Source: a virus. Taken from it: a stretch of 21,507 bases of DNA. The DNA lies in IMG/VR virus record IMGVR_UViG_3300046500_000370, positions 1-21,507 of that record. One strand, given 5' to 3'. A program made the translations under genes and the position numbers. The notes below the pieces were generated by a model, which ran no database searches, was not told the origin of the DNA, and saw only the letters and a program-made list of their open reading frames with translations. Position 1 is the stretch's first letter, and the number at the start of each line of letters is the position of its first letter. This document shows positions 2,036 to 20,250 of this stretch, piece after piece.

Positions 2036-2085
2036 CTTGCATGGGGTGCAGGGGGTCTGAGGTTCGAGTCCTCTCGCCCGGACCA
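2036..2085 (+). other. 3' half of a tRNA-Pro(GGG) gene: integration (att) scar
   Basis: The anticodon stem is CTTGC/GCAGG (2036-2040/2048-2052, one G-T pair) around the loop ATGGGGT, giving anticodon GGG with the usual T33 and G37. A T-arm with the universal GGTTCGAGTCC follows (2061-2071), then acceptor strand CGCCCGG, discriminator A and encoded CCA (2083-2085). The T-stem has one T/T mismatch at its base. The layout follows tRNA-Pro(GGG) of E. coli closely. The expected 5' acceptor (CCGGGCG) and a D-arm are absent upstream: the corresponding 7 bases at 2009-2015 pair at only three positions. This is therefore a displaced 3' end, the typical product of site-specific integration into a tRNA gene. 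The exact 5' edge of the identity block cannot be set from this window. Confidence 0.85.
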
Positions 2086-3062: not shown

Positions 3063-3584
3063 TCAGGCGCCAGACAACTTGTTGATCGTGTCATCCTTGG
3101 TCTTGTTCGCGCGCGTGGTGCCGAATTCGAACGAGAACAGCTGCTCGACCCAGCCCAGCGCACGGCCCAGGATCAGGCTGATCGTGGCTTTTGCGAAATC
3201 GTTTGCCGCCGAGTTGATCACGACAATGAACAGACAGATGATCACCAGCGACAGCGCCGCGCCGGCGAGCACGTTGGCGCGGTAGTTGTGGATCCCGGCC
3301 TTGGCCAGGTCAACGTCGCGCCCACGGGCGCTCTGCACGTCGGCCAGGTACGCCCGCTCGAGGTCCGCCTGCTGGCCGGCGATCGCCTGACGGAACTCCA
3401 GCAGCTTGTTCGGGTCGGCTTTGATCGCCTCGAGTGCAGCTTCGCCGCTATCCACGCCCGTGACCGTTTTCGCGATGTCGACCACCTTGCCGGCGACATC
3501 GGCCGCCTTGTCGCTACCTGTGAAAAGCTTAATCAGGGAAGGCGCGAACTGCGCCAGTGCCATGCCGATTGTAATTGGGTCCAT
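3063..3584 (-). CDS. Holin-like phage membrane protein
   Basis: A 173-residue protein with an N-terminal hydrophobic helix (MDPITIGMALAQFAPSLIKLF). A soluble charged middle includes a helix with FRQAIAGQQADLERAYLADVQSARGRD. A strong membrane segment (NVLAGAALSLVIICLFIVV) follows, and the C-terminal region is amphipathic (SLILGRALGWVEQLF) with a hydrophilic tail. This layout resembles the 3TM/GTA-type phage holin group. Its ATG directly abuts the TAG of the endolysin gene, placing it in the lysis cassette. It could be a holin, an antiholin or a membrane partner of the endolysin; with a separate holin candidate upstream, the division of work is undecided. It is the last intact gene of the late operon. 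Confidence 0.6.
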   Translation of the reverse strand: MDPITIGMALAQFAPSLIKLFTGSDKAADVAGKVVDIAKTVTGVDSGEAALEAIKADPNKLLEFRQAIAGQQADLERAYLADVQSARGRDVDLAKAGIHNYRANVLAGAALSLVIICLFIVVINSAANDFAKATISLILGRALGWVEQLFSFEFGTTRANKTKDDTINKLSGA

Positions 3585-4142
3585 CTATGCTGCCTCCACA
3601 CGGTTGAGTAGCCATCCAAAGTAAAAATCCTCGTTCTTCTCGTGCGCCTCGGTGATATCGAGGTAGCGCACGCCCTGCTGGCAGTTCAGCGCCCGCAGGA
3701 TCACCTTCTCGCCCTCGGCGCCACGGCGGCTCAGGAGGTCGCGCAGCGCACCGATCGTGGCCGGGCCGATCTTCCCGTCGACGCCGAGCTCGGGGTAATC
3801 CTTGCCGTGGTTGTTCAGCGCGTTGAGGATGCGCTGGAGCCACGGGCCAGGCAGCGATATGCCCATATTGACGCCGGTGTCGAACATCTCTTCCGCGATC
3901 GGCTGCGACACTGCGTAGACCTTGTCGAACCCGGGCGTTTCGAAGTATTCCCGCCGGTAGATTCGCATGGCCAGGTCGCGCCGCAGGTCGCGCATCAAGC
4001 CTGTGTAGCCCTGCTTGCGCGCTACCGCCTCGGTGATTCCCCACATAGTCGGGCCACCGGCATCATTGGGGTTAGCGGAGTAGCGCCCCTCGCGGCCGAT
4101 CAGCTCGTCGATCATCTGATCGACGCTTTTGCCGGCCGCCAT
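3585..4142 (-). CDS. Endolysin, glycoside hydrolase family 108 with C-terminal peptidoglycan-binding domain
   Basis: A 185-residue lysozyme-like enzyme that should cut the glycan strands of peptidoglycan at the end of infection. The N-terminal GH108 region carries the signature EGRYSANPNDAGGPTMWGIT, with Glu18 of the EG-x-Y motif as the catalytic acid. Then come a helical part and a C-terminal PG_binding_3-like domain (GVDGKIGPATIGAL and following, about residues 118-180). There is no signal peptide, so it should depend on a holin for access to the wall. The start at 4142 overlaps the stop of the upstream holin gene (TGATG), and the alternative upstream ATG at 4250 lies deep in that gene. Length and motifs are normal for the family. 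Confidence 0.9.
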   Translation of the reverse strand: MAAGKSVDQMIDELIGREGRYSANPNDAGGPTMWGITEAVARKQGYTGLMRDLRRDLAMRIYRREYFETPGFDKVYAVSQPIAEEMFDTGVNMGISLPGPWLQRILNALNNHGKDYPELGVDGKIGPATIGALRDLLSRRGAEGEKVILRALNCQQGVRYLDITEAHEKNEDFYFGWLLNRVEAA

Positions 4143-4599: not shown

Positions 4600-6498
4600 T
4601 CAGCTGATCAAGGTGTTCATGTTGGCGCTCAGCAGTCCGGGCGCGTTCTCTCCGCTTTGGACAGTTGTCAAACCGACCCCAACCACATTGCCAATCGCCT
4701 TAACGTGCGCTAGGGTTGCACCAGCTATGCCGCCAGAGGTGTCCAGCCCGGTATTGGCGGACCCGTCGATGCTGTTGTGCGCAAAAATCAGCGGTCTCGT
4801 CTGCTGGTTATTGGTTTGCAGCACCGTGCCGGTTGTACCGCGAATAATGTTGTTAGCGAGGACCCCGCCATTCGGCTGGTAAGCCGCGCCCACATTGCTG
4901 TTCAGCAGGTTGAAAACATTCCACTGCGCTCCGACGATCTCGCAGCCCCTAATATTGGAGTCCTGAAAACCGTTCAGGTTGAATGCAACGAAATAGCCCG
5001 CGATCTTCAGCCGCTCAATGTCCCAGCTCTGGGTGACGTAATCCGACAGCAGGAACTGGCCGGATCCCGGCCCATCCGCCTCGATTCCTTTAATCGAGGA
5101 AAACGCATTGCCGCCCGCGCTGCCAGAGCGAATACTCGTGTAGCCTCGCCACAAACCGTCTATTAGCTTGAAACGCGATGCTCCGTCGTAATTCCAAAAT
5201 ATCAGCTGGTGATCGGAAATCGCGGTTGCGTCCACATTGATGTTGATCGCTGCGCAGTTCGTGTTCCCCTCGGCGCCGGCAGTGTCAACTAACCCCAGTA
5301 GCAATTTTCCGTTGGCCGACGACTCCAGTTTGATGTTAACGTTCTCGATCCGGCAGTTGGTCGAGGCATTCCAGCGCATCATTGCCCAGGTCTGCGCGAT
5401 AGTCCCGCCGGTATAGGCTGCCGTGTAGCGGATGACACCGTTTTTGAAGATGCAGTCCGCGGCTAATTCAAAGTGCAGCACATCCTTATGCTGATCGGCG
5501 ATTTCATCGAGGCCATTGTCGATCGCCTCGAACCCGTCCACAAGGATGCCTTGAGCGCCGGAATCAGTCGAAATTAACGAGCGCCCGTTGCGTACACCCT
5601 TAATGCTGCGGAACGTCGAATTCTTGGCGTTGGAATAATTGCTAATAACGTCCCAACCGCAGTTCTCGCTCTCGATGTCGAAACCAGTCGTACCTTCTGC
5701 GTTATTAAATACGGCGGTGTAAGTCACATCCCTGATGTACAGGCTGCGCAGCCTAGTTCTCGGGTGAGACACTAGCACGCCATAGCGCCCCTTTCGCGCA
5801 CCAGGCACGTCCGAACAGATTGTCCAGTCCTGTAGAGTTGCACCAGCGCCGCCGGTTGCTATGACGTCATCCCCACTAGTGCCGGAGCTCAGGAGCCTGC
5901 CACCGTTTCCGTCTAAAGTAACTCCAGCCGGCAGGACAAGTGACTTGACCCGATACGATAATCCGCAACCTGTGAGGTAGGTTGCGCCACTGTTGAGGGC
6001 AGCCTGAATCGGCGCGGTCAGATCAAATACTGAGCCATTGCGTGCCGCTGTGATCTGCTGCGGCGTCATGCAGTCGAGCAAGCTCACGATTTCGAACAGC
6101 TTGTCCTGAACCGAGCGTTTAAGCCCACCGTCGACTCCCTGGACAAATCCGATTTCCGATGCGCCCGACGCAGCCGAGAGCTCCTCGCGAGTCGCTCCCT
6201 GGTGTACGGTCACCTTGCCTGCGGCAAGATCCGCAGCCACCGTCGATCCAATATGATCGTTGACCGCAACATAGGCAATATTGCCATCGGTGTACACATC
6301 CTTCATCGCATACTCGGTACCACTAACAAATGGACCGCGGACATTGAACGCCTTAAGCGTGTTAATCGCCCCTTGCGCAGTTGGCTTCACTCTACCGAAC
6401 CGGTCGATCGCCGTCAGGTTTTCTGACGTCGCAATCTCTGCAATGTGATCCAGATCCTTTTTTCCATTATTCAGGTCGTTGATATTCAGGGCCGGCAT
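4600..6498 (-). CDS. Tailspike with right-handed beta-helix
   Basis: A 632-residue receptor-binding protein, probably trimeric, at the phage tail tip. Residues about 1-130 form a particle-attachment head (IDRFGRVKPTAQGAINTLKAF, then a carbohydrate-module-like segment with YVAVNDH). From about 145, the sequence resembles a pectate-lyase-type beta-helix: a VFDLTAPIQAALNSGATYL opening, then short beta-strand/turn repeats rich in N, G, D and I (for example STFRSIKG, CRIENVNIK, SNIRGCEIVG, ANNIIRGTTG). Such folds often hydrolyse or lyse capsule or O-antigen, but no catalytic residues can be fixed here. No C-terminal autocleaving chaperone is evident. AAGGATTT precedes ATG 6498, and a terminator separates it from the upstream fibre gene. 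This is the part most likely to vary between relatives. Confidence 0.85.
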   Translation of the reverse strand: MPALNINDLNNGKKDLDHIAEIATSENLTAIDRFGRVKPTAQGAINTLKAFNVRGPFVSGTEYAMKDVYTDGNIAYVAVNDHIGSTVAADLAAGKVTVHQGATREELSAASGASEIGFVQGVDGGLKRSVQDKLFEIVSLLDCMTPQQITAARNGSVFDLTAPIQAALNSGATYLTGCGLSYRVKSLVLPAGVTLDGNGGRLLSSGTSGDDVIATGGAGATLQDWTICSDVPGARKGRYGVLVSHPRTRLRSLYIRDVTYTAVFNNAEGTTGFDIESENCGWDVISNYSNAKNSTFRSIKGVRNGRSLISTDSGAQGILVDGFEAIDNGLDEIADQHKDVLHFELAADCIFKNGVIRYTAAYTGGTIAQTWAMMRWNASTNCRIENVNIKLESSANGKLLLGLVDTAGAEGNTNCAAININVDATAISDHQLIFWNYDGASRFKLIDGLWRGYTSIRSGSAGGNAFSSIKGIEADGPGSGQFLLSDYVTQSWDIERLKIAGYFVAFNLNGFQDSNIRGCEIVGAQWNVFNLLNSNVGAAYQPNGGVLANNIIRGTTGTVLQTNNQQTRPLIFAHNSIDGSANTGLDTSGGIAGATLAHVKAIGNVVGVGLTTVQSGENAPGLLSANMNTLIS

Positions 6499-6520
6499 GT
6501 AAATCCTTGTTCTTTGGACG

Positions 6521-6544
6521 AAAAAAAAGCGCCATTGGCGCCTT
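6521..6544 (-). terminator. Intrinsic terminator upstream of the tailspike
   Basis: Read leftward, AAG-GCGCC-AAT-GGCGC is followed by eight T (complement of 6521-6528). The 5-bp GC core extends by a G-T and A-T pairs. It ends 22 nt before the tailspike ATG and lies after the fibre gene at 6563. Confidence 0.85.
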
Positions 6545-6562
6545 GGTTGTGAATACCTATTT

Positions 6563-7039
6563 TTATGAACCTATACCGCAACTTATCAAGACAGCTCTTA
6601 TGCTATTGGCGAGATCGATCACCGTTGGAAGGTCGGTCGCGGGTGGCGCCAGTGGAGTGCCCTCTGGCTCGACCGGGAGATAGCCGAGGGCGCCCACAAT
6701 CTGGTCAGATGTAAAGCCCGTCAAGCCTGCCCCACTGCCCGCAAAGGCAGTCGCGCTCAGCCTCCCGGTCGACGGGTTAAACGACAGCCTGGAACTAGAC
6801 GTGTACTGCAGAACGTTGCCGACCGTCGCCTTTACCCAGGTCGGATACACGACCGCATCCGTATCGGTATCGTCCTTCACCGCGACCACTCCGGTCAGCC
6901 TGATAATGACGTCGTCGTACCCCTTGGAGTACAGGGTGTGGTCGGTCAAATTGACCGCAAGCCCGCCCTCGACTACTTCACTGGGCAGCGGCGCTTTGCC
7001 CTCCACGACGCTGTGTGGGATTTGTACCTGCTCGACCAT
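6563..7039 (-). CDS. Short tail-fibre-like protein
   Basis: A 158-residue protein. Its N-terminus (IPHSVVEGKAPLPSEVVEGG, then LAVNLTDHTLYSKGYDDVI) resembles the short baseplate- or tip-attachment domain found at the start of many phage fibres, where a GELAVN-type strand precedes a LYSK/LYTK turn. The middle has fibre-like sequence (SFNPSTGRLSATAFAGSGAG, followed by LTGF), and a Pro-rich linker (PVEPEGTPLAPPATDLP) leads to a short helix. It sits between the gpJ-like tip protein and the tailspike, 11 nt after gpJ. It could connect the spike to the tip or be a fibre truncated before a distal domain. A terminator follows immediately. Confidence 0.65.
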   Translation of the reverse strand: MVEQVQIPHSVVEGKAPLPSEVVEGGLAVNLTDHTLYSKGYDDVIIRLTGVVAVKDDTDTDAVVYPTWVKATVGNVLQYTSSSRLSFNPSTGRLSATAFAGSGAGLTGFTSDQIVGALGYLPVEPEGTPLAPPATDLPTVIDLANSIRAVLISCGIGS

Positions 7040-7050
7040 ATCGTCAGCCC

Positions 7051-9636
7051 TTAATTGATGATCTCGGACTTTGCCGGGATCGCACCGTAGTCAGCAGCGT
7101 AGTAATCCGCCGAGTAGTTGATCGCCCGGACAGTCACGTACTGCGGATCCGACAGGTCGAGCTCCTGCACCAGGTACGCCTGCGCCCCGCGCGCGCTGTC
7201 AGCCGCGAAGCTGTAGATCGTGCGAATGCCATCCTGCCCGTAGCTCGTCACGATCTCCTCGCCCGGTAACGCCTGCAGCACGACCTGGTTCGGCGCATCG
7301 CCAGCCATGCAGGCGATGCTCTGCAGCGAGCCGTCACGCCTCATGAGCACGACGCTATGCGATGCGCGGGGCGTGAACGCCACATCCCTGCTCAGCGTCA
7401 GCGTGAGCCCATCCTGCCCAACCACCTCGCCGTCGTACGACTTGAACCGCGTGTTGTCGACGATATCGATGCGCGCGTTCGGCAGCAGCGAGCGTGCGTC
7501 GCTGGTCGTCGTGGTCTCGATCGTGACGCGCTGGCCGAGCAGCTTCCGATATTCCCGGTTCGCCCGCAGCCACGCCTGGGCGAACGACCGGATCCCGGCG
7601 ATCTCAAACTTCTTCGCCTTCGTGTGCGAGCCATCGAGCGGCAGCGTGATCGTTTCCGACTGCCCGCTATCCGGGTCGGAATAGACGAACTCCACCCCGT
7701 CGTACTCCGTATCGGACGCAAACTTGCGCGTGATCGATTCGGCCTTCGGCTTCTTGTTCCGGTGCGTGAACAGCGCCGTGCTGTTCGCCTGGGCGCAGTC
7801 GAAGGCCAGCCGGATCTTGCCGTTCTGCCGGTAAGCGATGCAGAACCCCGCGTTCGCGATCGAGATCACGGTCTCCTCGAAACTGGTGTTATCCGTGTCA
7901 AAGGTGAAGTTGAACTGCCCGCACTCAGGGTTCCACGCATCGAGCGCCTGCTGCACGCCCCAGATCTGCCGCATATCGACTTCGCTCGCCAGGTTGCGCC
8001 GGCCGATCTTCGGGTCGACCGACACCGCGGCGATGATGTCCACCAGCCTCGAGGTGGCCGCGATCGTGCCGGCCACGAGGCGGCCATCCGCATCGAAGGC
8101 GCCGGAGAACCCCGCCCCGTTATAGATCGGCAGCTTCCTCGACGCCAGGCAGTTAAGCTGGCGCGACTTCACGGCCGTGGCGCGCGCGGTCGCCTGCGTG
8201 ACGGTGTGCACGGTGGTCTTGTTCCCGAACTCCGTCTTCGTCACTGGCGACACGCTGTACAGGTCCGCCCACTTGATCTCGTCGACCACCGTCCCCTTGA
8301 ATTCGAAATCGAACGGCGTCGACCGGAACATCCGCACGCGCGCGGGCCCGGTCCAGGCTGTGGCGTGCTCGATCGTTTCCGCCCGCTCGTCCTGCACTGC
8401 GCCGGACAGCGAGCCGGTAACGGTTTCGACGACGCCCGTCGGCGACAGGTCGGCGCGCATCTGCTCGATCTCGATCGTGAAGTTCACAGCCGTGATCAGC
8501 TTGCCGTTGTCGTCCTTGAACATCCCGTTCTGGGCAATCACGTTGCACCACACTTCGGTCCGGTCCGGCGCCGGCAGCGTGACCCAGTCGGTAACGTGGG
8601 TCGCGCCCACGATGGTGATCGTGCTGTCCACCTCCTTCGCGGCGGGCCAGCTCGAGGTAGTGAGAACGATCTCGCCGTCGTCGACGGACTTCACTGTGTA
8701 AGTACCTGAGTAGTTGTACGGGCCCGCGACCACAGTCTCGCCCACTTTCGAGCCGTCGTAATCCAGGCCAAGAATCGTGGTGGCATTGAATCCGGCCATA
8801 TCGACCGTGATCTGGTCGCCCGGCTCGAGGACCGAATTGAAGTTCGGCTTCTTGTCGACTTGCGTGATCTTGTCGCCGCCCGGCGCCGGCGTGAATTTGT
8901 ACGTCGCTCCCGCTGGCAGCTGCACCTGGTTGATTGCCTTGAGCGTGATGCCGTCGACCTCGATCGCGCGCTTGGCCGTCACGATGTCATCGACGATCGG
9001 GGCGCCGACCTGCAGCACCGGCGCGCCGCTGTTGGGCGACGTGAACGGGTCGTAGAAGGCCGCGCTGGCGCCATCGATGTCCGCGATCAGGGTGTCGCCG
9101 TCCCGCACCTCCGCAATGTCGTAATAGCCGCGCCCGACGCAGTAGTAGCCATACTCGAACTTCTTGTGCCCGATGTACTTGTTATAGGTCGGCATCATCA
9201 GCGACGGGATCGACTTCACCGTGCCGTAAATGTCCTCCACGCGCTCGAGCAGGCGCACCTTGTTCTCGCGGGCGCCAAGCGCGTTGTTCGGGCTCTGCTG
9301 CGTCCTGTTGACGTTGCCGGGCATGACCGGCTTCGGCATCAGGACGATCGCGGCCACGGCCACCACCGCGGCAACGACAAATGCCGCAATAGCCCACGTT
9401 ACCGGGTCGCCGCCGGGACTCTGCAGGACGACGTACTCGGCGCAGTTGTTGGCCAGGATCGCTTCCGCGTCCCGGCTGATTTCGTTTTCGGTGCACGGCT
9501 CGCCGGCAAAGATCTGCACTGTGACGGTCGGCGTGCCGCCATAGTGATCGAGCAGCCATTGCGCCAGGCTGGCCACCTCGAACACCTGCGGCGCAGCCGG
9601 CGCGAACGGTGAATCGTATAAGCGAATGCGCGTCAT
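7051..9636 (-). CDS. Tail tip attachment protein, gpI/gpJ-like (host specificity)
   Basis: An 861-residue central tip protein of a siphovirus tail. Residues 1-76 resemble a lambda gpI-like region (FEVASLAQWLLDHYGG). A hydrophobic segment at about 79-101 (WAIAAFVVAAVVAVAAIVLM) follows, then the gpJ-type core from about 108 (NRTQQSPNNALGARENKVRL). The core includes hub-like and fibronectin-like beta domains with a C-terminal LDLSDPQYVTVRAINYSADYY segment. The likely insertion at about 295-330 (YNYSGTYTVKSVDDGEIVLTT) is a small beta module. The start at 9636 overlaps the gpK-like stop by 4 nt (ATGA), preferred over ATG 9651. Compared with lambda gpJ (over 1100 residues) it lacks a long C-terminal receptor region, so the adjacent fibre and spike probably bind the host. 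Confidence 0.88.
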   Translation of the reverse strand: MTRIRLYDSPFAPAAPQVFEVASLAQWLLDHYGGTPTVTVQIFAGEPCTENEISRDAEAILANNCAEYVVLQSPGGDPVTWAIAAFVVAAVVAVAAIVLMPKPVMPGNVNRTQQSPNNALGARENKVRLLERVEDIYGTVKSIPSLMMPTYNKYIGHKKFEYGYYCVGRGYYDIAEVRDGDTLIADIDGASAAFYDPFTSPNSGAPVLQVGAPIVDDIVTAKRAIEVDGITLKAINQVQLPAGATYKFTPAPGGDKITQVDKKPNFNSVLEPGDQITVDMAGFNATTILGLDYDGSKVGETVVAGPYNYSGTYTVKSVDDGEIVLTTSSWPAAKEVDSTITIVGATHVTDWVTLPAPDRTEVWCNVIAQNGMFKDDNGKLITAVNFTIEIEQMRADLSPTGVVETVTGSLSGAVQDERAETIEHATAWTGPARVRMFRSTPFDFEFKGTVVDEIKWADLYSVSPVTKTEFGNKTTVHTVTQATARATAVKSRQLNCLASRKLPIYNGAGFSGAFDADGRLVAGTIAATSRLVDIIAAVSVDPKIGRRNLASEVDMRQIWGVQQALDAWNPECGQFNFTFDTDNTSFEETVISIANAGFCIAYRQNGKIRLAFDCAQANSTALFTHRNKKPKAESITRKFASDTEYDGVEFVYSDPDSGQSETITLPLDGSHTKAKKFEIAGIRSFAQAWLRANREYRKLLGQRVTIETTTTSDARSLLPNARIDIVDNTRFKSYDGEVVGQDGLTLTLSRDVAFTPRASHSVVLMRRDGSLQSIACMAGDAPNQVVLQALPGEEIVTSYGQDGIRTIYSFAADSARGAQAYLVQELDLSDPQYVTVRAINYSADYYAADYGAIPAKSEIIN

Positions 9637-10004
9637 GCTGTGCGTGCCCAAAACTCGATCAGGGCGTACGTATCGCCAATGACCGACATCTCTTCATAGC
9701 GGTTGCCAGCGGTAAGCCCGTGCAGCACCTTCCCCTGGTAGAACACACCGCAGTGGTGCAATCCCATCGCGGCCGTCTTCCCCATCAGCACGACGCAGTA
9801 GTCGGCCGGCGCCACGATCTGCGCGAAGCCCTCGGGCGACTTGTGAAGCGCGATCCGAAACGCGCTCGCGATCGCACGGATCGAGCCGTTGATGGTCTTG
9901 TAGTCCGTCACCGGCAGGGCCAGCTCGGAAGTGTAGACGTCTGCAACGAGCTGCCAGCAAGGCGGCGACTCGTACTGCTTGGCCAGGTACGCATTAATGT
10001 CCAT
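9633..10004 (-). CDS. gpK-like tail assembly NlpC/P60 peptidase
   Basis: A 123-residue NlpC/P60 cysteine peptidase of the type found at the C-terminus of lambda gpK, with a local wall-degrading or assembly role at the tail tip. PPCWQLVADVY holds the catalytic Cys16, GLHHCGVFYQGKVLHG the catalytic His84, and His95 is the likely third residue. The N-terminal JAMM-type domain of full gpK is absent, so it is the short form. It lies between the DUF1833 and gpJ genes, in the order L-K-J as in lambda, with TAATG and ATGA overlaps on either side. The motif set is complete. Confidence 0.87.
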   Translation of the reverse strand: MDINAYLAKQYESPPCWQLVADVYTSELALPVTDYKTINGSIRAIASAFRIALHKSPEGFAQIVAPADYCVVLMGKTAAMGLHHCGVFYQGKVLHGLTAGNRYEEMSVIGDTYALIEFWARTA

Positions 10005-10510
10005 TACAGGAATCCTCTCAGCATGGGCACGTCCCTGGGCGCGTACAGCTCGCCCGTGCGTGTCATGTTCAAACGCGGCGACACCGCGCTGATGGTGGCG
10101 GCGCCGATCGCATACGAGATGCTCTCGGCCTGCAGCACCGCAGTGGCCTGCGCCACGGTCAGGTCGTCGCTCAGGTACTCGCGGTACACGATCTTGATCT
10201 TCTCCGTCGTGCTGACCGGGATCCGGTCCAGCTGCTCGCGGAACTCGTCCTCGATGTCGACCAGCCCGATCCGGATGTCGAACTTCTGGTCCAGGTGGCC
10301 TTCGTTGCCGGCCAACTTGATCTCGATATTGCAGGGCTGCATATCGGCCAGCACCCCGTCAGCAACGGTCTGCCCCCCATAGGGCTCGCGCCACAGGTGG
10401 TAGGTCTTGCTCATGGCCGAGTGGCTGATCTGCAGCGTCTGGATTGCCCAGATGGTCTGCGGCGCGGACGCCAGAAACGTCCGCAGCCGGGTTTCAAGGT
10501 CGAGGCTCAT
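10004..10510 (-). CDS. DUF1833 phage tail protein
   Basis: A 168-residue protein ending in the characteristic DUF1833 stretch: FDIRIGLVDIEDEFREQLDR, then a KIKIVYREYLSDDL strand, QATAVLQAESISYAIGAATI, and a C-terminal SPRLNMTRTGELYAPRDVPM. DUF1833 proteins occupy the place of lambda gpL or its neighbours in many siphovirus tails and probably form part of the tip ring. The start MSLDLETRL at 10510 overlaps the upstream TGA (TGATG), and its TAA overlaps the gpK-like ATG. The biochemical role is unknown; structural placement is by synteny. Confidence 0.82.
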   Translation of the reverse strand: MSLDLETRLRTFLASAPQTIWAIQTLQISHSAMSKTYHLWREPYGGQTVADGVLADMQPCNIEIKLAGNEGHLDQKFDIRIGLVDIEDEFREQLDRIPVSTTEKIKIVYREYLSDDLTVAQATAVLQAESISYAIGAATISAVSPRLNMTRTGELYAPRDVPMLRGFL

Positions 10511-11001
10511 CAGAAGTCCAGTACGTTCGTGTCGACCGTGGCGAACGTCGCCAGGCGCTGCAGCAGCGCGTGCGAGCCGGCGCCGTACGCGTTGTACACG
10601 TCGACCATCCCCGCAGCGTCTGCCGCCGACATCTCGTACACCTTGTTCTCCGCCTCCACCACGAACGACACGACCATCGCGATACCGCCCGTGCGCGCTG
10701 CTGAATACGATCCCGGCATAATGTTGACGGGGTGCGGCTCCGTGCCGAAGCCGGAATCGAGCCGCATGTCGAACGTAATCGCGCCCTTCTTGATGATGTG
10801 GTGGTAGAAGGCCGTCCACACCGAGAACTTGAGCGCGTCCAGGATGAGGGTTACCTGGTAGCGCTGCGTCCCGCGGTCCCAGTCAAGGCCATACCGCGCC
10901 GCGCCGCCCGCGACCTCGGTCCGCAGCACGCCGCCCGGGTCGTCCATTGAATAGGCGGCCACGGTCGGCGTGAAGCCGTTCGGCATTACAGGGTTCGGCA
11001 T
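10510..11001 (-). CDS. Minor tail protein (gpM-like position)
   Basis: A 163-residue beta-rich protein. Its N-terminal half has features of small distal-tail proteins (GLDWDRGTQRYQVTLILDAL, then FYHHIIKKGAITFDMRLDSG). The second half includes a helix (AADAAGMVDVYNAYGAG). It is located directly after the tape measure and before DUF1833, the slot of lambda gpM, where a distal tail protein joins tube to tip. Its ATG overlaps the tape measure TAA. No enzyme motif is present. I judge it structural with good confidence but the specific homology is uncertain. Confidence 0.7.
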   Translation of the reverse strand: MPNPVMPNGFTPTVAAYSMDDPGGVLRTEVAGGAARYGLDWDRGTQRYQVTLILDALKFSVWTAFYHHIIKKGAITFDMRLDSGFGTEPHPVNIMPGSYSAARTGGIAMVVSFVVEAENKVYEMSAADAAGMVDVYNAYGAGSHALLQRLATFATVDTNVLDF

Positions 11002-13499
11002 TATCGAGTCCTCGACACGTTCAGGTTACGGCCCATGGCACGCGACGTTCGACTGTTCGGATCGGCCAGCGAGGATGCCGTAGCGTTCACAGCCTCCTCG
11101 ATGATCAGCGCCCGCTCGGTATCCGAAATTCGCTGCTCGGTCACGTTCCCGATCGGTGAGCGCGTGTTGTTCACGATGGTCAGCTTGAGGTCGCCGCCGG
11201 CGCCGCCGATCTTGTGGTTCGGGATGATGGTGCCGTGGGTTGGCGGCCGGAAGATCTCCGGCCCCTTCTCGCCAACCAGAAACGCGCCGCCATCCCACAC
11301 CGAGCCGCCTTTCTCACGCTGGCCAGCGATGGCCATGCCGGCCACCATGCCGGCGCTTGCGTAGCCAGTCACCCTGATCATGGTCGCCATTGGAATGCCA
11401 AAGATGCCGAGCTGGGCGCCTGCCTTCGCTGCGGCCACCTCGGTATTCAGGATGATTTCGGCAACGGCTATCGCCTTGTTCGCCAGGAACGCCGCCTTGG
11501 CAAGTGCCGACTGCTCCCTCCCGGCCGACTTCAACAGGTTGTAGAGCTGGTCCGCGGTATCGCCAGCCATTGCAAGCGATTGCTGGCGGTTTGCTGCCTC
11601 CATTTCCGTGATCGCGGCAACGTGGCGCTCTTTCTCGCGCTCGATGGCAAGATCGGCTTCGACGGTGTTTGCAAGCTCCTCATCGCGATACGCCTGCAAA
11701 TCCTTGAGCCGGTTCGCATGCTCCTCATTCTCCTTCTCCTGAGGCGTCTTCAGGGAGTCCGCGAGCTGCTTGCCGATACCCTGGGTCGTGGCGTGATTGG
11801 CCTTCGCCGCGTGGTCTGCGGCATCCTTCCGGTACTGCGCGATCGACGCCTCGGTGATCGTGCCCTTCTCTTTCGCCTGGCGAATCTTCTCCTCGATGTC
11901 CAGCTCGAGGCGGCGCGCCTCGGTCAGCTTGGCGATTTCAAGTGCCGACTTCCCGTACAGGTCGTTGTTGAACCTCATCTGGCTCTCGGCCAGGTCCTGC
12001 TCGCGGTTCCAATCCTGCATGGCCTTGTTCAGGCCAGACTGCGCGGCTGACATGCTGAGCGTTTGCATCCCCAGCGCCCGGGTCGCATCGGCGCGAGCCT
12101 TGTCCCTCAGCGCAATCTTCTCGTTGAGCTGGTTCGTGATCGCAGCCTTATCAGCTTCCTTGACCGCGACGGCATGCGCCTTTTGCAAAGCCGAGATTTC
12201 CGCGTCATACGCACGTACCGCGGCATCGCGCGCCTGCTCGATCGACGCGATCTTGTACTGTGCATACGTCTGCACATCGACGAGGTCCTGATTGCGCAGC
12301 TCCTGCATGAAATTATCGTGGAAGGCCGCTGTGTCGCGTTCCTGCGCGTAGGCCGCTTCGAACGCCTTCAGCTGGCCCTCGAGCAGCGCCTTGGCTGGGT
12401 CGTCGCCCTTGGCGCGCAACGTCGGTGCGCGCGATTTCGGCTTGTTGGCGTCATCCCCCGCGGCCGGTTTCTCGGCAGCCTTTGGGGTGCGGTCTAGGAC
12501 GTTGGCGATGAACGCATCGTGTTCCTTGCGCGCCTTCTCAGCGTCCGCCTTCATGGCCTCGCTGATCGCGTTGAATCCCTTCATGTCACCATGGGCCAGG
12601 CGCTCGATTTGCGCGGCAATTCCCCCGATTTCGGTACCGACGGCCTTGAAGGTATAGCCGACTTCCGACCCGACGATTACGAACGTCTCGAGCACCGTCC
12701 GGACCACGTCGCCGGCCAATGAAAACTTATCGGAATTCTCGGCCGCGCCCAGCATTTCATCCCCGACGGTCTGCAGCACAGGCAGTACCGCCGAGGAGAT
12801 CGTGTTGTAAAAACCTTTCTGCTGGACCGTCAGCTTGCCCATCGTGTCGTTGAAGTTGTCCGACGCGTTGGCCAGTTCTTCGGTCACACCGCTGTACTGC
12901 TTCGCATAGGCGATGTTTTCCCGCAGCGCGTCGCCGCCATCGTTGAGCAGCGGGATCATGTCGGCGCCGGCCTTACCGAAGATCCGGAGCGCGATCGCTG
13001 TCTTCTCCGGCCCGTCAGCGTAGTCCTTGAACTTGTCCGCTACTTCGGCAATAACAACGTCCGCAGTCTTCAGGTTACCTGCCGCATCACGCACGTTGAT
13101 GCCCAGCTTGGAAAAGGCCTCGCCCGTGTCCTTGTTGCCACCAGCTGCTTCGGCAATGGACTTGTTCACCTTGCCGGCCGCTGCGACCACGCTCTCGAGG
13201 TCCCCGCCCGCCTGGCCGGCGGCGAAGCCCAGGCCATTCAGCGTCTCGACAGCGACGCCCGTCTTCTGAGACATGTCGCGCAGATGGTCGGCCGCGTCGA
13301 TAGAATCCTTCACGAGGACAGCGAAGGCACCGACCGACACGCCAACACCGAGGAATTCGAGTGCTTTCTTCCCGGTCTCGATCGCGCCCTCGACACGCTT
13401 CATGGCATCCTCGGTGCTTTTCCCCGACTTCTGCATATCGCTGAGGTATTTCGCGATGTTCGCCTCGAGCGTGACGACCAAAGAGCCCAGATTTGCCAT
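11001..13499 (-). CDS. Tape measure protein
   Basis: An 832-residue tail length determinant. The N-terminus MANLGSLVVTLEANIAKYLSD is typical, followed by a hydrophobic patch (LEFLGVGVSVGAFAVLV). A long alpha-helical, Ala/Lys/Glu-rich coiled-coil middle (about 380-690) is followed by a hydrophobic segment near the end (AEIILNTEVAAAKAGAQLGI). The C-terminal GG-x-W-x-GG-x-FLVGEKGPEIF motif occurs in many tape measures. I chose ATG 13499, preceded by GAGGCAGG, over ATG 13511, which directly abuts the terminator T-run and so has no room for a ribosome site. ATG 13724 lies inside the upstream gene in another frame. Length fits a tail of medium size. It is translated next to its gpG/gpGT chaperones as expected. 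Confidence 0.93.
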   Translation of the reverse strand: MANLGSLVVTLEANIAKYLSDMQKSGKSTEDAMKRVEGAIETGKKALEFLGVGVSVGAFAVLVKDSIDAADHLRDMSQKTGVAVETLNGLGFAAGQAGGDLESVVAAAGKVNKSIAEAAGGNKDTGEAFSKLGINVRDAAGNLKTADVVIAEVADKFKDYADGPEKTAIALRIFGKAGADMIPLLNDGGDALRENIAYAKQYSGVTEELANASDNFNDTMGKLTVQQKGFYNTISSAVLPVLQTVGDEMLGAAENSDKFSLAGDVVRTVLETFVIVGSEVGYTFKAVGTEIGGIAAQIERLAHGDMKGFNAISEAMKADAEKARKEHDAFIANVLDRTPKAAEKPAAGDDANKPKSRAPTLRAKGDDPAKALLEGQLKAFEAAYAQERDTAAFHDNFMQELRNQDLVDVQTYAQYKIASIEQARDAAVRAYDAEISALQKAHAVAVKEADKAAITNQLNEKIALRDKARADATRALGMQTLSMSAAQSGLNKAMQDWNREQDLAESQMRFNNDLYGKSALEIAKLTEARRLELDIEEKIRQAKEKGTITEASIAQYRKDAADHAAKANHATTQGIGKQLADSLKTPQEKENEEHANRLKDLQAYRDEELANTVEADLAIEREKERHVAAITEMEAANRQQSLAMAGDTADQLYNLLKSAGREQSALAKAAFLANKAIAVAEIILNTEVAAAKAGAQLGIFGIPMATMIRVTGYASAGMVAGMAIAGQREKGGSVWDGGAFLVGEKGPEIFRPPTHGTIIPNHKIGGAGGDLKLTIVNNTRSPIGNVTEQRISDTERALIIEEAVNATASSLADPNSRTSRAMGRNLNVSRTR

Positions 13500-13511
13500 T
13501 GCCTGCCTCAT

Positions 13512-13537
13512 AAAAAAAGCTCGCCGTAGCGAGCTTT
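13512..13537 (-). terminator. Intrinsic terminator before the tape measure gene
   Basis: Read leftward, AAAGCTCGC-TACG-GCGAGCTTT is a perfect 9-bp stem, continuing in a run of T (complement of 13512-13518). It lies between the zinc-ribbon gene and the tape measure ATG, which follows 12 nt after the T-run. Confidence 0.88.
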
Positions 13538-13558
13538 GTATTGTTTGAACGGTTCGCG

Positions 13559-13882
13559 CTACTTGCGCAGAACGTACCGCCTGAATGCCTGGCCGAGCAT
13601 TTTGCCCGTTGCCCCCGCATTCGACTTCCGGACGGGCGTCGCAGGCATATGCGGCTGATGCTGCTGCGCCAGCGTGCGCCCAACTGGTGAGTTGACCGGC
13701 ACGAGCGCCACCGAGCCGCAGCATGCACAGGCGTCATACCGCGACGACAGGCGCCAGAATGAATAGATTAGCCCAGGCACGAGAAAACAAAGCCAAAGGA
13801 TCAGCTCGATCATTGTCGACCCCTTGGTGATTCGGGCTGGCTCCCCCGTCGTGCCGCAATCCTTGCAAACCATGTCGCTCAT
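13559..13882 (-). CDS. Membrane protein with split zinc-ribbon, unknown function
   Basis: A 107-residue protein with CKDC (Cys6, Cys9) near the N-terminus, one membrane segment (IELILWLCFLVPGLIYSFW, about 25-43) and a second CACC knuckle (Cys52 and Cys55). The segment VPVNSPVGRTL follows and a basic tail closes the protein (GKMLGQAFRRYVLRK). The two CxxC pairs could bind one zinc across the membrane helix or hairpin. Similar small zinc-ribbon membrane proteins occur uncharacterised in bacteria and phages. GGGAG lies before ATG 13885 and ATG 13882; I prefer 13882 for spacing. It sits in the tail operon between gpGT and the tape measure, where a virion assembly gene would be expected, so it may be an inserted moron acting on the host envelope. 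Confidence 0.7.
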   Translation of the reverse strand: MSDMVCKDCGTTGEPARITKGSTMIELILWLCFLVPGLIYSFWRLSSRYDACACCGSVALVPVNSPVGRTLAQQHQPHMPATPVRKSNAGATGKMLGQAFRRYVLRK

Positions 13883-13920
13883 CATTACTCCCAAATTGTG
13901 GTTATGGAGCAATAATGCCA

Positions 13921-14280
13921 CTATCGCGGCGGCATGCCAAACATCGCCGCCCGGATCAGGTTGGACTGTGCGACCGGATCCTCGAGCAGCGTTGGCTCTT
14001 CCTCGTCTGCCTCCGTCTGGCTCAGATCACCCCAGCTGATGAAGTCGGCGGCCCTGTATGGCTCCGGCCTCGCTTCAGTGTTCCGGTTGATGTTCGCCAG
14101 GAGCGCTGCAGCAGTGCCGTGCCGCATATCGCCGACCTGGTCACCGAACGGCTCGAGCTCGTAATAAGCCTGCCATTCGGTGAATTCGGCCGAGCTGATC
14201 TCAAGCTGCGCCTGTCGTACGCTCTTGCCTAGCTCTTTGGCGAGCCGGAACCAGAATCTCCGCTCTGGCCGCTCGCGGAG
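13921..14280 (-). CDS. Tail assembly chaperone T extension (gpGT, made by -1 frameshift from gpG)
   Basis: This frame has no good start of its own but is coding from the slip site onward: RFWFRLAKELGKSVRQAQLE, then EFTEWQAYYELEPFGDQVGD, a middle part, and a C-terminal MFGMPPR. The pattern matches DUF4035-type phage proteins that are the T half of gpGT. After slippage at 14286-14280 the ribosome enters at CTC (14280-14278) and reads 119 residues to TAG 13921. The fusion is about 234 residues (115 from gpG). In lambda, gpG and gpGT chaperone the tape measure while the tube assembles, and their ratio is critical. The next downstream structural gene is indeed the tape measure. Confidence 0.85.
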   Translation of the reverse strand, partial: LRERPERRFWFRLAKELGKSVRQAQLEISSAEFTEWQAYYELEPFGDQVGDMRHGTAAALLANINRNTEARPEPYRAADFISWGDLSQTEADEEEPTLLEDPVAQSNLIRAAMFGMPPR

Positions 14281-14624
14281 TTTTTTGCGGCATCCTCGAC
14301 CGCGACCGCACCCAAGCCGTTAAGACGCATGGCGACGGCCGCCGGCGCGTCGAGCGATGCTGCACTCTTCGCCTGCAGGGCCTCCATGTCGTCTATCGAG
14401 AACAAGCGCGCCCCGCTTTCGTCGATGCAGGTTGCGGCCAGCAGCGCTGCCGAGAACTTGCTGACCGGGACGTTTCCCTCGGCGGCGATGGTCGCACGAA
14501 ACTCGTCGCGTTCGACGCCGTTCATCACGCGCACACGTACCGTGCCGCCCCATTGCGGCACGGGCACGTCCTCGTGCTTCAGGTCGCTGGCGCCGAGGAT
14601 TGCCGATTTCGTCAACAGTCCCAT
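14229..14624 (-). CDS. Tail assembly chaperone gpG
   Basis: A 131-residue protein beginning MGLLTKSAILGASDLKHEDV, with a beta-rich first half (WGGTVRVRVMNGVERDEF) and a helical second half including AALLAATCIDESGARLFS. The last stretch after the slip site is a Ser/Gly-rich tail (NSASGQSGDSGSGSPKS), which is the default end when no frameshift occurs. It follows the tail tube gene by 2 nt, with GGAG before its ATG inside that gene. As in lambda it should bind the tape measure and prevent premature tube polymerisation. Most ribosomes should make this form, a minority the longer gpGT. Confidence 0.85.
   Translation of the reverse strand: MGLLTKSAILGASDLKHEDVPVPQWGGTVRVRVMNGVERDEFRATIAAEGNVPVSKFSAALLAATCIDESGARLFSIDDMEALQAKSAASLDAPAAVAMRLNGLGAVAVEDAAKNSASGQSGDSGSGSPKS
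14240..14286 (-). promoter_or_regulatory. Programmed -1 ribosomal frameshift signal (gpG to gpGT)
   Basis: The heptamer A-AAA-AAC (14286-14280) stands in the gpG frame exactly as X-XXY-YYZ, with AAA and AAC as the slipping codons. Three nt later, an extended imperfect stem-loop begins: GCGAGC (14276-14271) with GCTCGC (14245-14240), GG with CC, and CCAGA (14268-14264) with TCTGG (14255-14251). That is 13 pairs interrupted by one bulged G and a TT. An alternative shorter hairpin, TCCGC with GCGGA, is also possible. The zero frame stops at 14229; the -1 frame continues to 13921. Confidence 0.85.
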
Positions 14625-14626
14625 GA

Positions 14627-15259
14627 TCAGCTCCAGACCACAGGACCGCTGATCTTGGTGTCGACCTTGCCCTTGAGGAGAGCATTGACGCCGCCCGAGC
14701 TGGGGATCGATTTCACCAAGGTATTGAAGCTGGCCACGCTGCCGTCCGGCAGGGACAGCTTCATGCTAGCCACGTCGCCGCTGGTACGTGCGGCGCGCAG
14801 GGCGATCTGGCCGTTGTCGTCCTTGAGGACCTTCACCTCAAAGCCGAACTTGCCCTCGTCGCGCAGCCCGCTGATGTATTCCATCGCGGTGCTGTCCAGG
14901 TCAGTCGAGTCGATGTCGCTCGCTGCCCCGTCGAAGCCATCGAACGACAGCAGGCCATTGATCTTGGTATAGGCAGACGGGGTAGCGGTTCCGCCGTTGT
15001 CGTAGACCAGGCCGGTAGTATCGACATCGAGGAGCGCATAGGTGTTGGCCGTCACGTTCGAGACGACGTGGGACTTGCCGTTCAGGACCGCCATCGTGCC
15101 GACGATATCGGCGAGAGCGGCAACGGTGCCGTTAGTCAGGCCATGGCCCGCGCTTGTCACGATCGCGGGAAACCCCGCAGAAATTCCCGTGATAGCCTTC
15201 GCGCCGCCGGCCCCGGTGGCAATCTCCAGGGTGCTGCCTTGTGCAGAAATTCCGCTCAT
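14627..15259 (-). CDS. Major tail tube protein with inserted beta domain
   Basis: A 210-residue tube subunit of a long non-contractile tail. The core appears in two parts: residues 1-20, and about 97 onward, with YTKINGLLSFDGFDGAASDI, then DSTAMEYISGLRDEGKFGFE, then LPDGSVASFNTLVKSIP. These features are typical of lambda gpV/TP901-1-like tail tubes. Between them, about residues 22-95 (FPAIVTSAGHGLTNGTVAAL, then VGTMAVLNGKSHVVSNV, then LVYDNGGTATP) form a small beta module. It is like the HGL-x-x-G ... GM-x-x-LNG ... DTTG-x-x-Y-x-x-GGT repeat often annotated as an E1 FCCH-like domain in virion proteins, and it probably decorates the tube surface. GAGAGG precedes ATG 15259. It is one of the two most abundant virion proteins. 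Confidence 0.88.
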   Translation of the reverse strand: MSGISAQGSTLEIATGAGGAKAITGISAGFPAIVTSAGHGLTNGTVAALADIVGTMAVLNGKSHVVSNVTANTYALLDVDTTGLVYDNGGTATPSAYTKINGLLSFDGFDGAASDIDSTDLDSTAMEYISGLRDEGKFGFEVKVLKDDNGQIALRAARTSGDVASMKLSLPDGSVASFNTLVKSIPSSGGVNALLKGKVDTKISGPVVWS

Positions 15260-15277
15260 CTGTTACCTCTCAAAATG

Positions 15278-15297
15278 AAAACGCCGCACAAGGCGGC
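15278..15297 (-). terminator. Weak terminator-like hairpin upstream of the tail tube
   Basis: Read leftward, GCCGC-CTTGT-GCGGC is followed by GTTTTCATTTTG. The stem is 5 bp of pure GC with a short, interrupted T-run. It lies in the 59-bp gap, 18 nt before the tail tube ATG. Confidence 0.6.
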
Positions 15298-15318
15298 AAT
15301 GGTTGAAGCTGCAGGTGC

Positions 15319-15735
15319 TCAAGCGCTAAGGCTGAGCCGATCAGTGCAGTAATGGACTTTGTAACGGGTCGTCATCATGCAGGCGTTGCCGTCCGCACCG
15401 GCGAACACCGGCGCGTTTGTCCCGACCTCCTCGATCAGGACGATGCCCGGCGCGCGGAACTGCATGATCGCTGGGTGCGCGACCTCCATGACCTCGTCCG
15501 CCTCCTGGTCGGGAGCATCGGCGCGCGATATGACGCTGGCCAGGATCTCGCATTCGCGGTCGGTGTCGTCGCCCAGGGTGTTCTCGACATCCTCGGCGCC
15601 ACGGTGCACGATCAGCACCGGGCTTTCGTCCCGGCGGAAGGCCACTGACATCGAGCGGTGTACCCCAGCTGGAAACGCCGGGATGGCCTGCAGCATGGCA
15701 ATGAGTCCTTGGATGTAGCTCTCGCGCAGCGTCAT
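15319..15735 (-). CDS. Tail completion/terminator-like protein
   Basis: A 138-residue protein starting MTLRESYIQGLIAMLQAIPA, with beta strands (ESPVLIVHRGAEDVEN), a helix, and a C-terminal strand pair (TNAPVFAGADGNACMMTTRY). Its place just before the tail tube gene and the general alpha-beta pattern fit a tail terminator or neck protein like lambda gpU or HK97-type completion proteins. Its ATG overlaps the preceding stop by 4 nt (ATGA). No active-site motif is present. Function is assigned from position and fold impression, not from a recognised signature. Confidence 0.6.
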   Translation of the reverse strand: MTLRESYIQGLIAMLQAIPAFPAGVHRSMSVAFRRDESPVLIVHRGAEDVENTLGDDTDRECEILASVISRADAPDQEADEVMEVAHPAIMQFRAPGIVLIEEVGTNAPVFAGADGNACMMTTRYKVHYCTDRLSLSA

Positions 15736-16040
15736 GGCTTCACCTCTTCCAACGCGGCGACGTAGAACGTGCCGTCGCCCTTGGCGGACGGCGTCTGCCG
15801 AACCTTGTAGCTGCTGCCAGCAATCTGCAGCATGTAACCGCGCTGGAGCTCGATGTCGGCGCGCTGGTATTCGATGCTGTAGTCGGTGGTATGCACCATC
15901 CCATCGAGCACTACCTGGTCGGGCCGGTTGAAGCCGACATCGAACGGCACCGCCGGGCCAACTGCAGGTTGATAGACTGCCTCGTCCAGCATGCCGGCTT
16001 GCTTGAATGCCGGCCAGAAAACATCGGCGCCAAACGACAT
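15732..16040 (-). CDS. Head-tail connector/completion protein
   Basis: A 102-residue beta-rich protein (DVGFNRPDQVVLDGMVHTTD, then IEYQRADIELQRGYMLQIAG). It resembles in size and style the small head-tail joining proteins of siphoviruses that sit between capsid and tail genes. The gene lies 2 nt after the decoration protein stop and overlaps the next start by 4 nt. The repeated short strands and C-terminal GTFYVAALEEV fit a ring-forming beta-barrel. Whether it corresponds to lambda gpFII or to another stopper cannot be decided by eye. Confidence 0.6.
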   Translation of the reverse strand: MSFGADVFWPAFKQAGMLDEAVYQPAVGPAVPFDVGFNRPDQVVLDGMVHTTDYSIEYQRADIELQRGYMLQIAGSSYKVRQTPSAKGDGTFYVAALEEVKP

Positions 16041-16042
16041 GA

Positions 16043-16375
16043 TCAGGTGATCACGGCGTCGAGCTTGATCGTTGCCGTCGCGGCCCCGTTCGCCTTTGCC
16101 ACGACCGCGACACCAACCCGCGTATTGCCGGCAGCGGTAATCGTCAGGCGCTTGTTGACGGCGTCCCAGTACAGGATGGCGCCCTGCGCAGCAACGTCGG
16201 CGGCCAGCGCCGACAGCTCGAAGACGCCTTCGGTCTGGAATTCGCCCGTTGCGCCAGCGGCAACGTTGGCCACCGCGACGCCGAAGAGCTTGCCGACCAG
16301 TACAGCCTCGCCTGCCTGGACGGCTGCAGCGGCGAGCAGACTCAGGGTGAGACCCTTCTGGATAAAGTTTTTCAT
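16043..16375 (-). CDS. DUF2190 capsid decoration protein
   Basis: A 110-residue protein with the DUF2190 pattern: MKNFIQKGLTLSLLAAAAVQ, GEAVLVGKLFGVAVANVAAG, EGVFELSA, then AQGAILYWDAVNKRLTI, and GVAVVAKANGAATATIKL. These are Gly/Ala/Val-rich small beta barrels that cement the capsid surface. The hydrophobic start looks superficially like a signal peptide but belongs to the family pattern. AAAGGAACC precedes ATG 16375. It directly follows the capsid fusion gene, separated by a hairpin, as is usual for decoration genes; high expression is expected. Confidence 0.85.
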   Translation of the reverse strand: MKNFIQKGLTLSLLAAAAVQAGEAVLVGKLFGVAVANVAAGATGEFQTEGVFELSALAADVAAQGAILYWDAVNKRLTITAAGNTRVGVAVVAKANGAATATIKLDAVIT

Positions 16376-16403
16376 GTGGTTCCTTTGAAATGGAGGACTT
16401 CGG

Positions 16404-16437
16404 AAAACGAACTGGCCAGCCCCTTGTAGGCCGGCCA
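16404..16437 (-). terminator. Terminator-like hairpin after the capsid gene
   Basis: Read leftward, TGGCCGGCC-TACAAGG-GGCTGGCCA pairs over 9 bp with one G-U pair and is followed by GTTCGTTTTCC. The T-run is short. It sits in the 79-bp gap between the capsid fusion and the decoration gene. Confidence 0.6.
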
Positions 16438-16454
16438 TCACTGCCGAACGCGGA

Positions 16455-18506: not shown

Positions 18507-18518
18507 GTGTCGCCTTAT

Positions 18519-18550
18519 AAAAAAGCCCTACGAGCAGATGCTGGCAGGGC
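18519..18550 (-). terminator. Intrinsic terminator between portal and capsid genes
   Basis: Read leftward, GCCCT (18550-18546) pairs with AGGGC (18529-18525), with an inner AGCA/TGCT stem, followed by six T (complement of 18519-18524). The capsid Shine-Dalgarno and ATG begin within 12 nt after it. Confidence 0.75.
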
Positions 18551-18570
18551 GTGGTAACGGGAGGAGCCTT

Positions 18571-20022
18571 TTACTGCTGGCCGATCATCTGGGCAGCTGT
18601 CGCGGCATCAATCAGGCGTTGCGCAATCGCAGCGTCGGAATCGGTCAGGATGCCCAGTTCCGCCAGCTTCTTGCGCTCGGCCGCGATCTCGGCAAACACC
18701 TTGTCCGGGTCTTCGCCCATCTCGCGGATCGTCTCGGAGATGCTCTTGACCGTGCCGCGGTGCGCCTCCTTTGCCGCCATCACGTCCTTGAGCGGATCCA
18801 CCCACTGCAGCTTGGGCATCGTCCACCCCATCGCCGTCACGGGCTTGCGGGTCTTGCCGGCCAGCCGCGCCACTTCCTGGAAGCGGCGCCCGATCGGCGC
18901 CAGCACCATCGGCTTGAGGGCCAGCCATTGCTCGGCCTTGACCATCTGCCGGAACTCGACCAGGCCGGCCCGGTAGCTGGAGAAGTTGAAGTTCGACAAG
19001 TTGCCCGTCATCTGCGAGTACATCACGCCGGCGCCGGCCGCAATCGCGTGCAGCTGGGTGTCCGTGTAGTCACCGTAGCCGCCGCTCGATGCCGGGTTGC
19101 CGAAGTCAACGCCCTCGGAGTTCGACAGGTACTTGATCATTCCGGGCGCGACCTTCTCGTTCACCGCGCGCGGAGTCGCCTTGGTCTCGGTCCCCATGCG
19201 CAGCGACGTGTCGTCGGTGCGCACGAAGGCGACGAAGCACGACTCGATCTTCTTGCGCACCAGCTCGGCCTGCTCGTAGTCGGCCAGGTCGCGCAGGCGC
19301 AGCAGCGAGACCGCCAGTTCGGGCATGCCGCGCACCTGGCTGGGCCGGCGCTTGCGGTAGTAGTGCAGGACTTCCGAAGCCGGCACGCGCTTGCTCTCGA
19401 GGCTGGCCAGCTGGTAGCTCGCCATCTCGCCCGGGTGCACCGGAAACAGCCAGTAGGCGACGCGCTGGCCGATAAGGTTGAACTCGATGCCGGCGATCGC
19501 ATAATTGCCGTTGGCCAGCGGCCCCATCTTGCGTGTGTCCAAGTGGTCGGGCTCGAGCACCTGGATCTGCAGCGGCACCGGGTAGCCGTCGTCCGGCATG
19601 CGGGAGCGGAAGCGGATGATCACCTCGCCGCTCTCGCGCCGGGTGCGGTGCGCCAGGTCGATCAGCCCGTTAAAGTCGAGCTGGCCGTCGGCGTCGCAGT
19701 ACTCGCACCAATCGTCCCACAGCGCCTGGTCGGGTGCCTTGGCCACGATGCCATCGCCAACGGTGTTTACGCACAGCGTCTCGATCGCTTTGGCCGCGTA
19801 CTCGTTATTGCGGACCACGTCCCGGCAGCGGTTGCGCACCCGTGAGAGCGCGGGCGCGATCTCGACGTTGGCGCTGCCGCCGTTGGCGATCCAGCCGTCC
19901 GTGCGGCGCCCGACCTTGGCCGCATCGTAGCCGCGCATCATCTCGAGCGCGCTGCGCGCCTGGGCGCGGCGCACACCGGCCATCGGGCTAAAGAACCCGA
20001 CCATTTCATCGATCAGGTTCAT
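18571..20022 (-). CDS. Portal protein, lambda family
   Basis: A 483-residue portal subunit that forms the dodecameric DNA gate at one capsid vertex. The sequence follows the lambda portal family from start to end: a YDAAKVGRRTDGW start, PALSRVRNRCRDVVRNNEYA, NTVGDGIVAK, RESGEVIIRFRSR, LEPDHLD, YWLFPVHPGE, then GMPELAVSLLRLRDLADYEQ, and a C-terminal helical tail (AAATAAQMIGQQ-like). The ATG at 20022 lies one nt after the gpW stop, chosen over ATG 20100 because the latter overlaps gpW deeply and its extra residues are Arg-rich out-of-pattern sequence. Its neighbours gpW and gpA-type terminase agree with lambda-type packaging. Confidence 0.93.
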   Translation of the reverse strand: MNLIDEMVGFFSPMAGVRRAQARSALEMMRGYDAAKVGRRTDGWIANGGSANVEIAPALSRVRNRCRDVVRNNEYAAKAIETLCVNTVGDGIVAKAPDQALWDDWCEYCDADGQLDFNGLIDLAHRTRRESGEVIIRFRSRMPDDGYPVPLQIQVLEPDHLDTRKMGPLANGNYAIAGIEFNLIGQRVAYWLFPVHPGEMASYQLASLESKRVPASEVLHYYRKRRPSQVRGMPELAVSLLRLRDLADYEQAELVRKKIESCFVAFVRTDDTSLRMGTETKATPRAVNEKVAPGMIKYLSNSEGVDFGNPASSGGYGDYTDTQLHAIAAGAGVMYSQMTGNLSNFNFSSYRAGLVEFRQMVKAEQWLALKPMVLAPIGRRFQEVARLAGKTRKPVTAMGWTMPKLQWVDPLKDVMAAKEAHRGTVKSISETIREMGEDPDKVFAEIAAERKKLAELGILTDSDAAIAQRLIDAATAAQMIGQQ

Positions 20023-20023
20023 G

Positions 20024-20245: not shown

Positions 20246-20250
20246 AATTT

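Follow-up and report, generated by a model that had tools for sequence, protein, structure and literature searches.

The left end of the viral record analysed here probably comes from a tRNA-Pro gene holding two mobile elements in a row: a small T6SS islet without a visible integrase, then the displaced 3′ half of the tRNA, and then a tandem lambda-like prophage. The window, that is, the whole stretch of DNA analysed, is an entire IMG/VR virus record of 21,507 bases. Its right end is cut inside the terminase gene, and therefore both outer att sites fall outside the view. The tRNA half would be the att core common to two elements that abut within a single tRNA-Pro(GGG) gene. On its left, the core would adjoin the distal end of an element that bears orf98-hcp-rap1a-tae4 and has a predicted left boundary. 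The following features were located:

1–297, − strand: orf98L, 98 aa, late-end marker gene that adjoins the att core in related prophages (tblastn)
382–900, + strand: Hcp, T6SS inner-tube/needle protein (PF05638, E=2e-39; phrog_27303, E=3e-36)
1061–1447, + strand: Rap1a/Tai4-type immunity protein (PF18602, E=4e-12)
1440–1928, + strand: predicted Tae4-type peptidoglycan amidase effector (PF14113, E=5e-17)
1929–2025, no strand: 97-bp spacer between Tae4 and the tRNA remnant, with no resemblance to a tRNA 5′ half or to the P arm on the int side of related attP sites
2026–2085, + strand: displaced 3′ part of tRNA-Pro(GGG), the att core (3′ side of the D stem, anticodon arm, T arm, acceptor strand and CCA)
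2086–2160, + strand: P′ arm of the right-hand prophage, CTGTATATTAGATGATCATCTAATAT type (identity to related junctions)
2178–2213, + strand: terminator-like hairpin AAGGGTTACGCGCTTCTGGCATGTAGCCCTT with a T run, also found beside the att core in loci L010 and L033
2313–2897, + strand: ORF2313, 194 aa, first prophage gene past the att site (phrog_23516, E=6e-19)
3063–3584, − strand: late-end phage gene, phrog_1544, with related genes in 20 viral loci
3585–4142, − strand: endolysin (GH108 and PG-binding 3, Pfam)
4600–21507, − strand: lambda-like late region cut by the record end (tail fibre-like protein, J-like tail protein, tail tube, portal and terminase large subunit)

The tRNA half and the prophage beside it

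Through direct reading, the anticodon stem and loop were placed at 2036–2052 (CTTGC ATGGGGT GCAGG) with the anticodon GGG at 2043–2045, followed by the variable loop (2053–2057), the T arm (2058–2074), the acceptor strand (2075–2081) and A plus CCA (2082–2085). ARAGORN found no complete tRNA gene in the window, and the stretch 2011–2082, taken at full length, scored 15.8 bits with the Rfam tRNA model, of which the cut-off is 29. A 30-base probe allowing at most 3 mismatches matched the window once and never matched in 100 shuffles, which ruled out a chance match. The window thus holds a 3′ tRNA segment lacking the 5′ half and ending in CCA, and these results confirmed the first-pass annotation, which had read a displaced 3′ half of tRNA-Pro(GGG) in + orientation. 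The extent given there, 2036–2085, needed correction at one end: the named parts are all present, but homology with intact tRNA-Pro genes reaches 10 bases further left and begins at 2026 (TGTTAGCATGCTTGC versus TGGTAGCGTACTTGC, 12/15). This D-stem match is the single such place when both strands are considered.

Two pair-breaking changes were found in the half, T:T at 49:65 in the T stem and the acceptor strand CGCCCGG, the latter unique among 55 distinct related sequences compared; together they would be consistent with relaxed selection. A degenerate full-length tRNA pseudogene was also considered and rejected. The 3′ 50 nt differ from the family consensus at only a few positions, whereas no 5′ acceptor strand can be recognised, and replacement of the 5′ half is therefore favoured over uniform decay. 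The exact 50-nt core was absent from every other virus record by exact search, and the exact 18-mer of the left junction (2015–2032) was absent from other IMG/VR records, so no sibling of this exact junction is known among virus contigs.

The P′ arm of a phage follows the core directly on the 3′ side, which makes the core a part of the left att site belonging to this prophage. Core and P′ arm together (2026–2155) showed 80–85% identity over 105–131 bp with L034, L017, L018 and L027, and up to 85% identity with genomes; L034 and L017 have an intact tRNA-Pro at this junction, and in L018 and L027 the core is an attP. The CTGTATATTAGATGATCATCTAATAT sequence after CCA is an arm recurring in a related phage group which uses tRNA-Pro(GGG) in Massilia/Duganella-like bacteria. 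The order of att core, phage P′ arm and phage genes is that of a tRNA-Pro(GGG) prophage. The first-pass annotation had left two choices for the prophage, a tandem neighbour in the same site or a position elsewhere. The adjoining P′ arm supports the former, as do the tRNA-Pro tandems of other records, and it rules out integration at another site. Similarity points to a host from the family around Massilia.

That annotation had also argued that, with the late end of the prophage here and its integrase at the far right, the tRNA would be expected to point the other way. Four related layouts contradicted this. G001/L003 has the order intact tRNA-Ser (+), ORF2313 homolog (+), lysis and late genes (−), and, at the other end, int (+) and a displaced Ser half; the tRNA-Pro prophages L034, L137 and L233 likewise have the lysis end beside the intact tRNA. 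In the attP-type contigs L018, L027, L047 and L048, the core separates int, on its left, from the late end, on its right.

Paraburkholderia phage IPK also uses the 3′ half of tRNA-Pro(GGG) as att core, and its attP matches the core of the window with 89.6% identity over 48 nt. The integrases of IPK, L018 and L027 are 53–57% identical and share the same tRNA-Pro core. The int of IPK (L002, 5001–6255) is on the 3′ side of the core, opposite to L018 (744–2079) and L027, where it is on the 5′ side; both arrangements therefore exist, as if the core were inverted relative to int.

ORF2313 is a rare protein. L003 contains its closest relative (357–950, 52% identical), which starts 114 bp past the intact tRNA-Ser and occupies the same slot. 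Other relatives were L323 (36%, without a recognisable tRNA core nearby) and one weak partial match in 394 genomes. In other prophages of the group this slot beside the att site holds different cargo, such as hcp-tai4-tae4, and in L064 it holds a 312-aa ORF with a very weak PADLOC match. A defence-family search gave no match for ORF2313 or orf98.

The T6SS block and its relatives

Positions 1–1928 are occupied by orf98-hcp-rap1a-tae4, and the earlier proposal that a T6SS block 5′ of the tRNA half is cargo of a left element was counted as supported. The predicted Tae4 matched the Tae4 structure PDB 6ijf (E=2e-24) and also SSP1 (4bi3/4bi4), and its Cys46 and His130 are invariant in 12 aligned sequences. 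With a Tae4 domain keeping the predicted catalytic Cys/His and a Rap1a/Tai4 gene adjacent, the two genes form a putative Tae4/Tai4 effector and immunity pair. No integrase or recombination gene was found in positions 1–2035.

In the spacer (1929–2025), by-eye motif similarity to P arms of other integrase classes was weak. A perfect palindrome, GTGCAGACGTCTGCAC, is located at 1986–2001 and recurs in L013 (11440–11458) and L014 (6384–6400); the copy in L013 is likewise just behind tae4.

Virus contigs contain 12 relatives of the Hcp of the window, and behind nine of these Tai4 and Tae4 come in the same order. L017 carries, one after another, an intact tRNA-Pro, orf98, hcp, tai4, tae4 and late genes; L018 shows almost the same phage in its attP form, and the layouts of L016 (tRNA-Leu) and L010 (tRNA-His half) agree with L017. 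The window differs from these in that the core is directly behind tae4, on the opposite side from orf98. The orf98 gene belongs to no Pfam family, and tblastn found relatives in about 15 related viral loci (40–65% identity). Wherever both were visible, orf98 was 50–1060 bp from the att core and always on the core side. Since the core side of orf98 is off the left edge in the window, a second core or an intact tRNA is predicted just beyond position 1. Separately, L011 (10001–12863) has Hcp-Tai4-Tae4 upstream of apparent Mu/P2-type baseplate genes (by eye) on the same strand, and this copy is not att-proximal.

The tRNA-Pro(GGG) gene is heavily used as an integration site in Massilia, Duganella, Janthinobacterium and relatives, and tandem occupation was found in three cases. 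In IMGVR_3300048091_000143, an intact tRNA-Pro lies close to one end and a displaced half about 46 kb off; behind this half come a P′ arm of the same kind and an orf98 fragment, and left of it lies an Arm-DNA-bind_3-type integrase homolog. In Duganella sp. CF517, an intact tRNA-Pro is followed after 17.4 kb by a displaced half with P′ arm, and in Glaciimonas soli GS1 the intact tRNA-Pro and the displaced half are 4.8 kb apart.

Small T6SS islands were found at other RNA genes. In L255 a 271-bp direct repeat (90%) at the tmRNA brackets hcp-tai4-tae4. L262 has tRNA-Phe, then hcp-tai4-tae4 with a U32 peptidase gene, then a 3′ copy of 37 bp; L295 has tRNA-Ser, tae4-tai4 and a remnant of 22 bp, and both of these repeats are short and degenerate. 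Among the proteins scanned from the small islands there was no integrase. An RNA gene was present within 18 kb in 17 of 45 Tae4 regions and in 3 of 20 control regions, an excess which is only suggestive.

Complete tandem duplicates of a tRNA were observed directly beside chromosomal tai4-tae4 pairs, namely tRNA-Ser in L260 (8087–8317, 100%) and tRNA-Asn in L269 (8238–8471, 99%). In L004/L006 (IMGVR_UViG_3300046499_000314), where rap1a-tae4 is beside a tRNA-His half, an exact 127-bp repeat at 1481–1607 and at the contig end links a chromosomal junction with an apparent circular phage form. The viral comparisons were made mostly with metagenome contigs.

Readings of the junction

On the reading we consider probable, the left element would be a T6SS islet of about 2.3 kb without its own integrase. 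Its insertion would have displaced the 3′ half of the tRNA, and the lambda-like prophage would occupy the distal core of the islet. The islet would most likely be the remnant of a related prophage which lost everything between tae4 and the att end. By synteny, an intact tRNA-Pro or other core would lie about 50–250 bp left of position 1, barring an intervening slot gene. Because the left boundary is outside the record, the islet size and the intact tRNA remain predictions. From what we take to be the roles of these families, the islet would arm the T6SS of the host with an Hcp-delivered amidase, and Rap1a would protect the host. This reading agrees with the recurrence of hcp-tai4-tae4 in prophages, with orf98, if present, on the core side, and with the three tandems and the islands L255, L262 and L295. 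It also fits the P′ arm beyond the core, the late ends adjoining intact tRNAs in relatives, the lack of the int which attP-type junctions have left of the core, and the two pair-breaking changes in the tRNA half. The short, degenerate repeats of L262 and L295 count against it, and no other locus was found with tae4 directly abutting a tRNA-Pro half. In addition, streptococcal tandems have the decayed element farthest from the target gene, which is the opposite order (PMC7563491).

The left element could instead be a complete prophage or island of tens of kb, with orf98-hcp-rap1a-tae4 as its terminal cargo. The same tRNA does hold full-size first elements, of 17.4 kb in Duganella CF517 and of about 46 kb in IMGVR_3300048091_000143, and in G002/L004 and L254 Tae4-Tai4 adjoins the displaced half at the late end. 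However, the block in G002/L004 and L254 is inverted relative to that half, and in the window the core side on which orf98 otherwise always faces is the far side. Moreover, int is about 210–220 bp from the displaced half in IMGVR_3300048091_000143 and Duganella, and none is present here. We therefore regard a full-size left element as rather unlikely.

Much less probability is given to a single phage in circular or excised form opened at attP, whose int end would carry the T6SS block as cargo, even though bare 3′ halves at free attP junctions are frequent among the loci compared (L018, L027, L047 and L048). In all four of these contigs int ends within about 100–150 bp left of the core, where the window has Tae4. 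The CTGTATATT-type arm between int and core of L018 and L027, the two fully read, is missing from the window, and orf98 in relatives is a gene of the late end, not of the int end. An assembly chimera of two unrelated genomes joined at the tRNA is also very improbable. Conserved sequence of about 50 nt makes up the core, and tRNA repeats are classic points of metagenome misassembly; but the core is shorter than the assembly k-mer judged from the 127-bp exact end repeats of G002, its exact sequence recurs in no other virus record, and the layout has counterparts in isolate genomes.

Known systems and meaning of the proposed islet

The closest precedent is Aux3 of V. cholerae, a T6SS effector/immunity module on an att-flanked, prophage-like element of about 40 kb in environmental strains (Santoriello 2020, PMC7721734); its reduced form of about 6 kb, also att-flanked, is grounded in pandemic V. 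cholerae strains (PMC7721734). A T6SS effector/immunity module with an att-flanked, prophage-like carrier was likewise found in L017/L018/L016/L010 and in L254, and for the window it is proposed by synteny only. Aux3 has retained an integrase and is inserted between gcvT and thrS, whereas the sites here are tRNA/tmRNA 3′ ends with no integrase seen, the module is hcp-rap1a-tae4, and the same site also holds a stacked prophage.

The arrangement also resembles CIMEs (cis-mobilizable elements), small att-flanked remnants without recombination genes, which share the 3′ end of a gene in tandem with a functional element (PMC7563491). The right att site is present in the window, and both sites are present in L255, L262 and, weakly, L295. 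CIMEs are defined as derivatives of ICEs or IMEs and spread by conjugation (PMC7563491). Here the partner and the likely ancestor are phages, the nearest full-size carriers found being prophages, which does not support descent from an ICE or IME by deletion, and the decayed element is predicted to adjoin the target gene instead of lying farthest from it. Because the likely ancestor is a phage, we did not file the islet as a CIME, although it would work like one. Polymorphic toxins of temperate phages (PMC5576092) are antibacterial and are encoded by cargo genes of the phage, as would likewise be the case here; the cargo in the window would differ in being a T6SS amidase accompanied by genes for its own Hcp and immunity protein. 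Among the hits listed from an open-access library, none described phage-borne Hcp-Tae4 modules.

We might speculate, with considerable doubt, that hcp-rap1a-tae4 islets are recurrent integrase-less cassettes between tRNA/tmRNA att cores, excised and moved in trans by the integrases of prophages stacked at the same site. If true, they would be a phage-linked counterpart of CIMEs, shuttling T6SS weapons among Massilia/Duganella-like bacteria.

Scars in tRNA genes and tandem integration are ordinary; a toxin island linked to phages is less familiar among the ways in which bacteria acquire weapons. The spread of orphan T6SS effector modules has so far been mostly inferred. The hcp-immunity-effector block was found here as prophage cargo beside an intact tRNA, in the same kind of phage at attP, in small islands at tRNA/tmRNA genes and, probably, as an islet with a tandem second prophage. 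This series of four states offers concrete material to test whether phages deliver and then abandon T6SS weapons, as proposed for Aux3.
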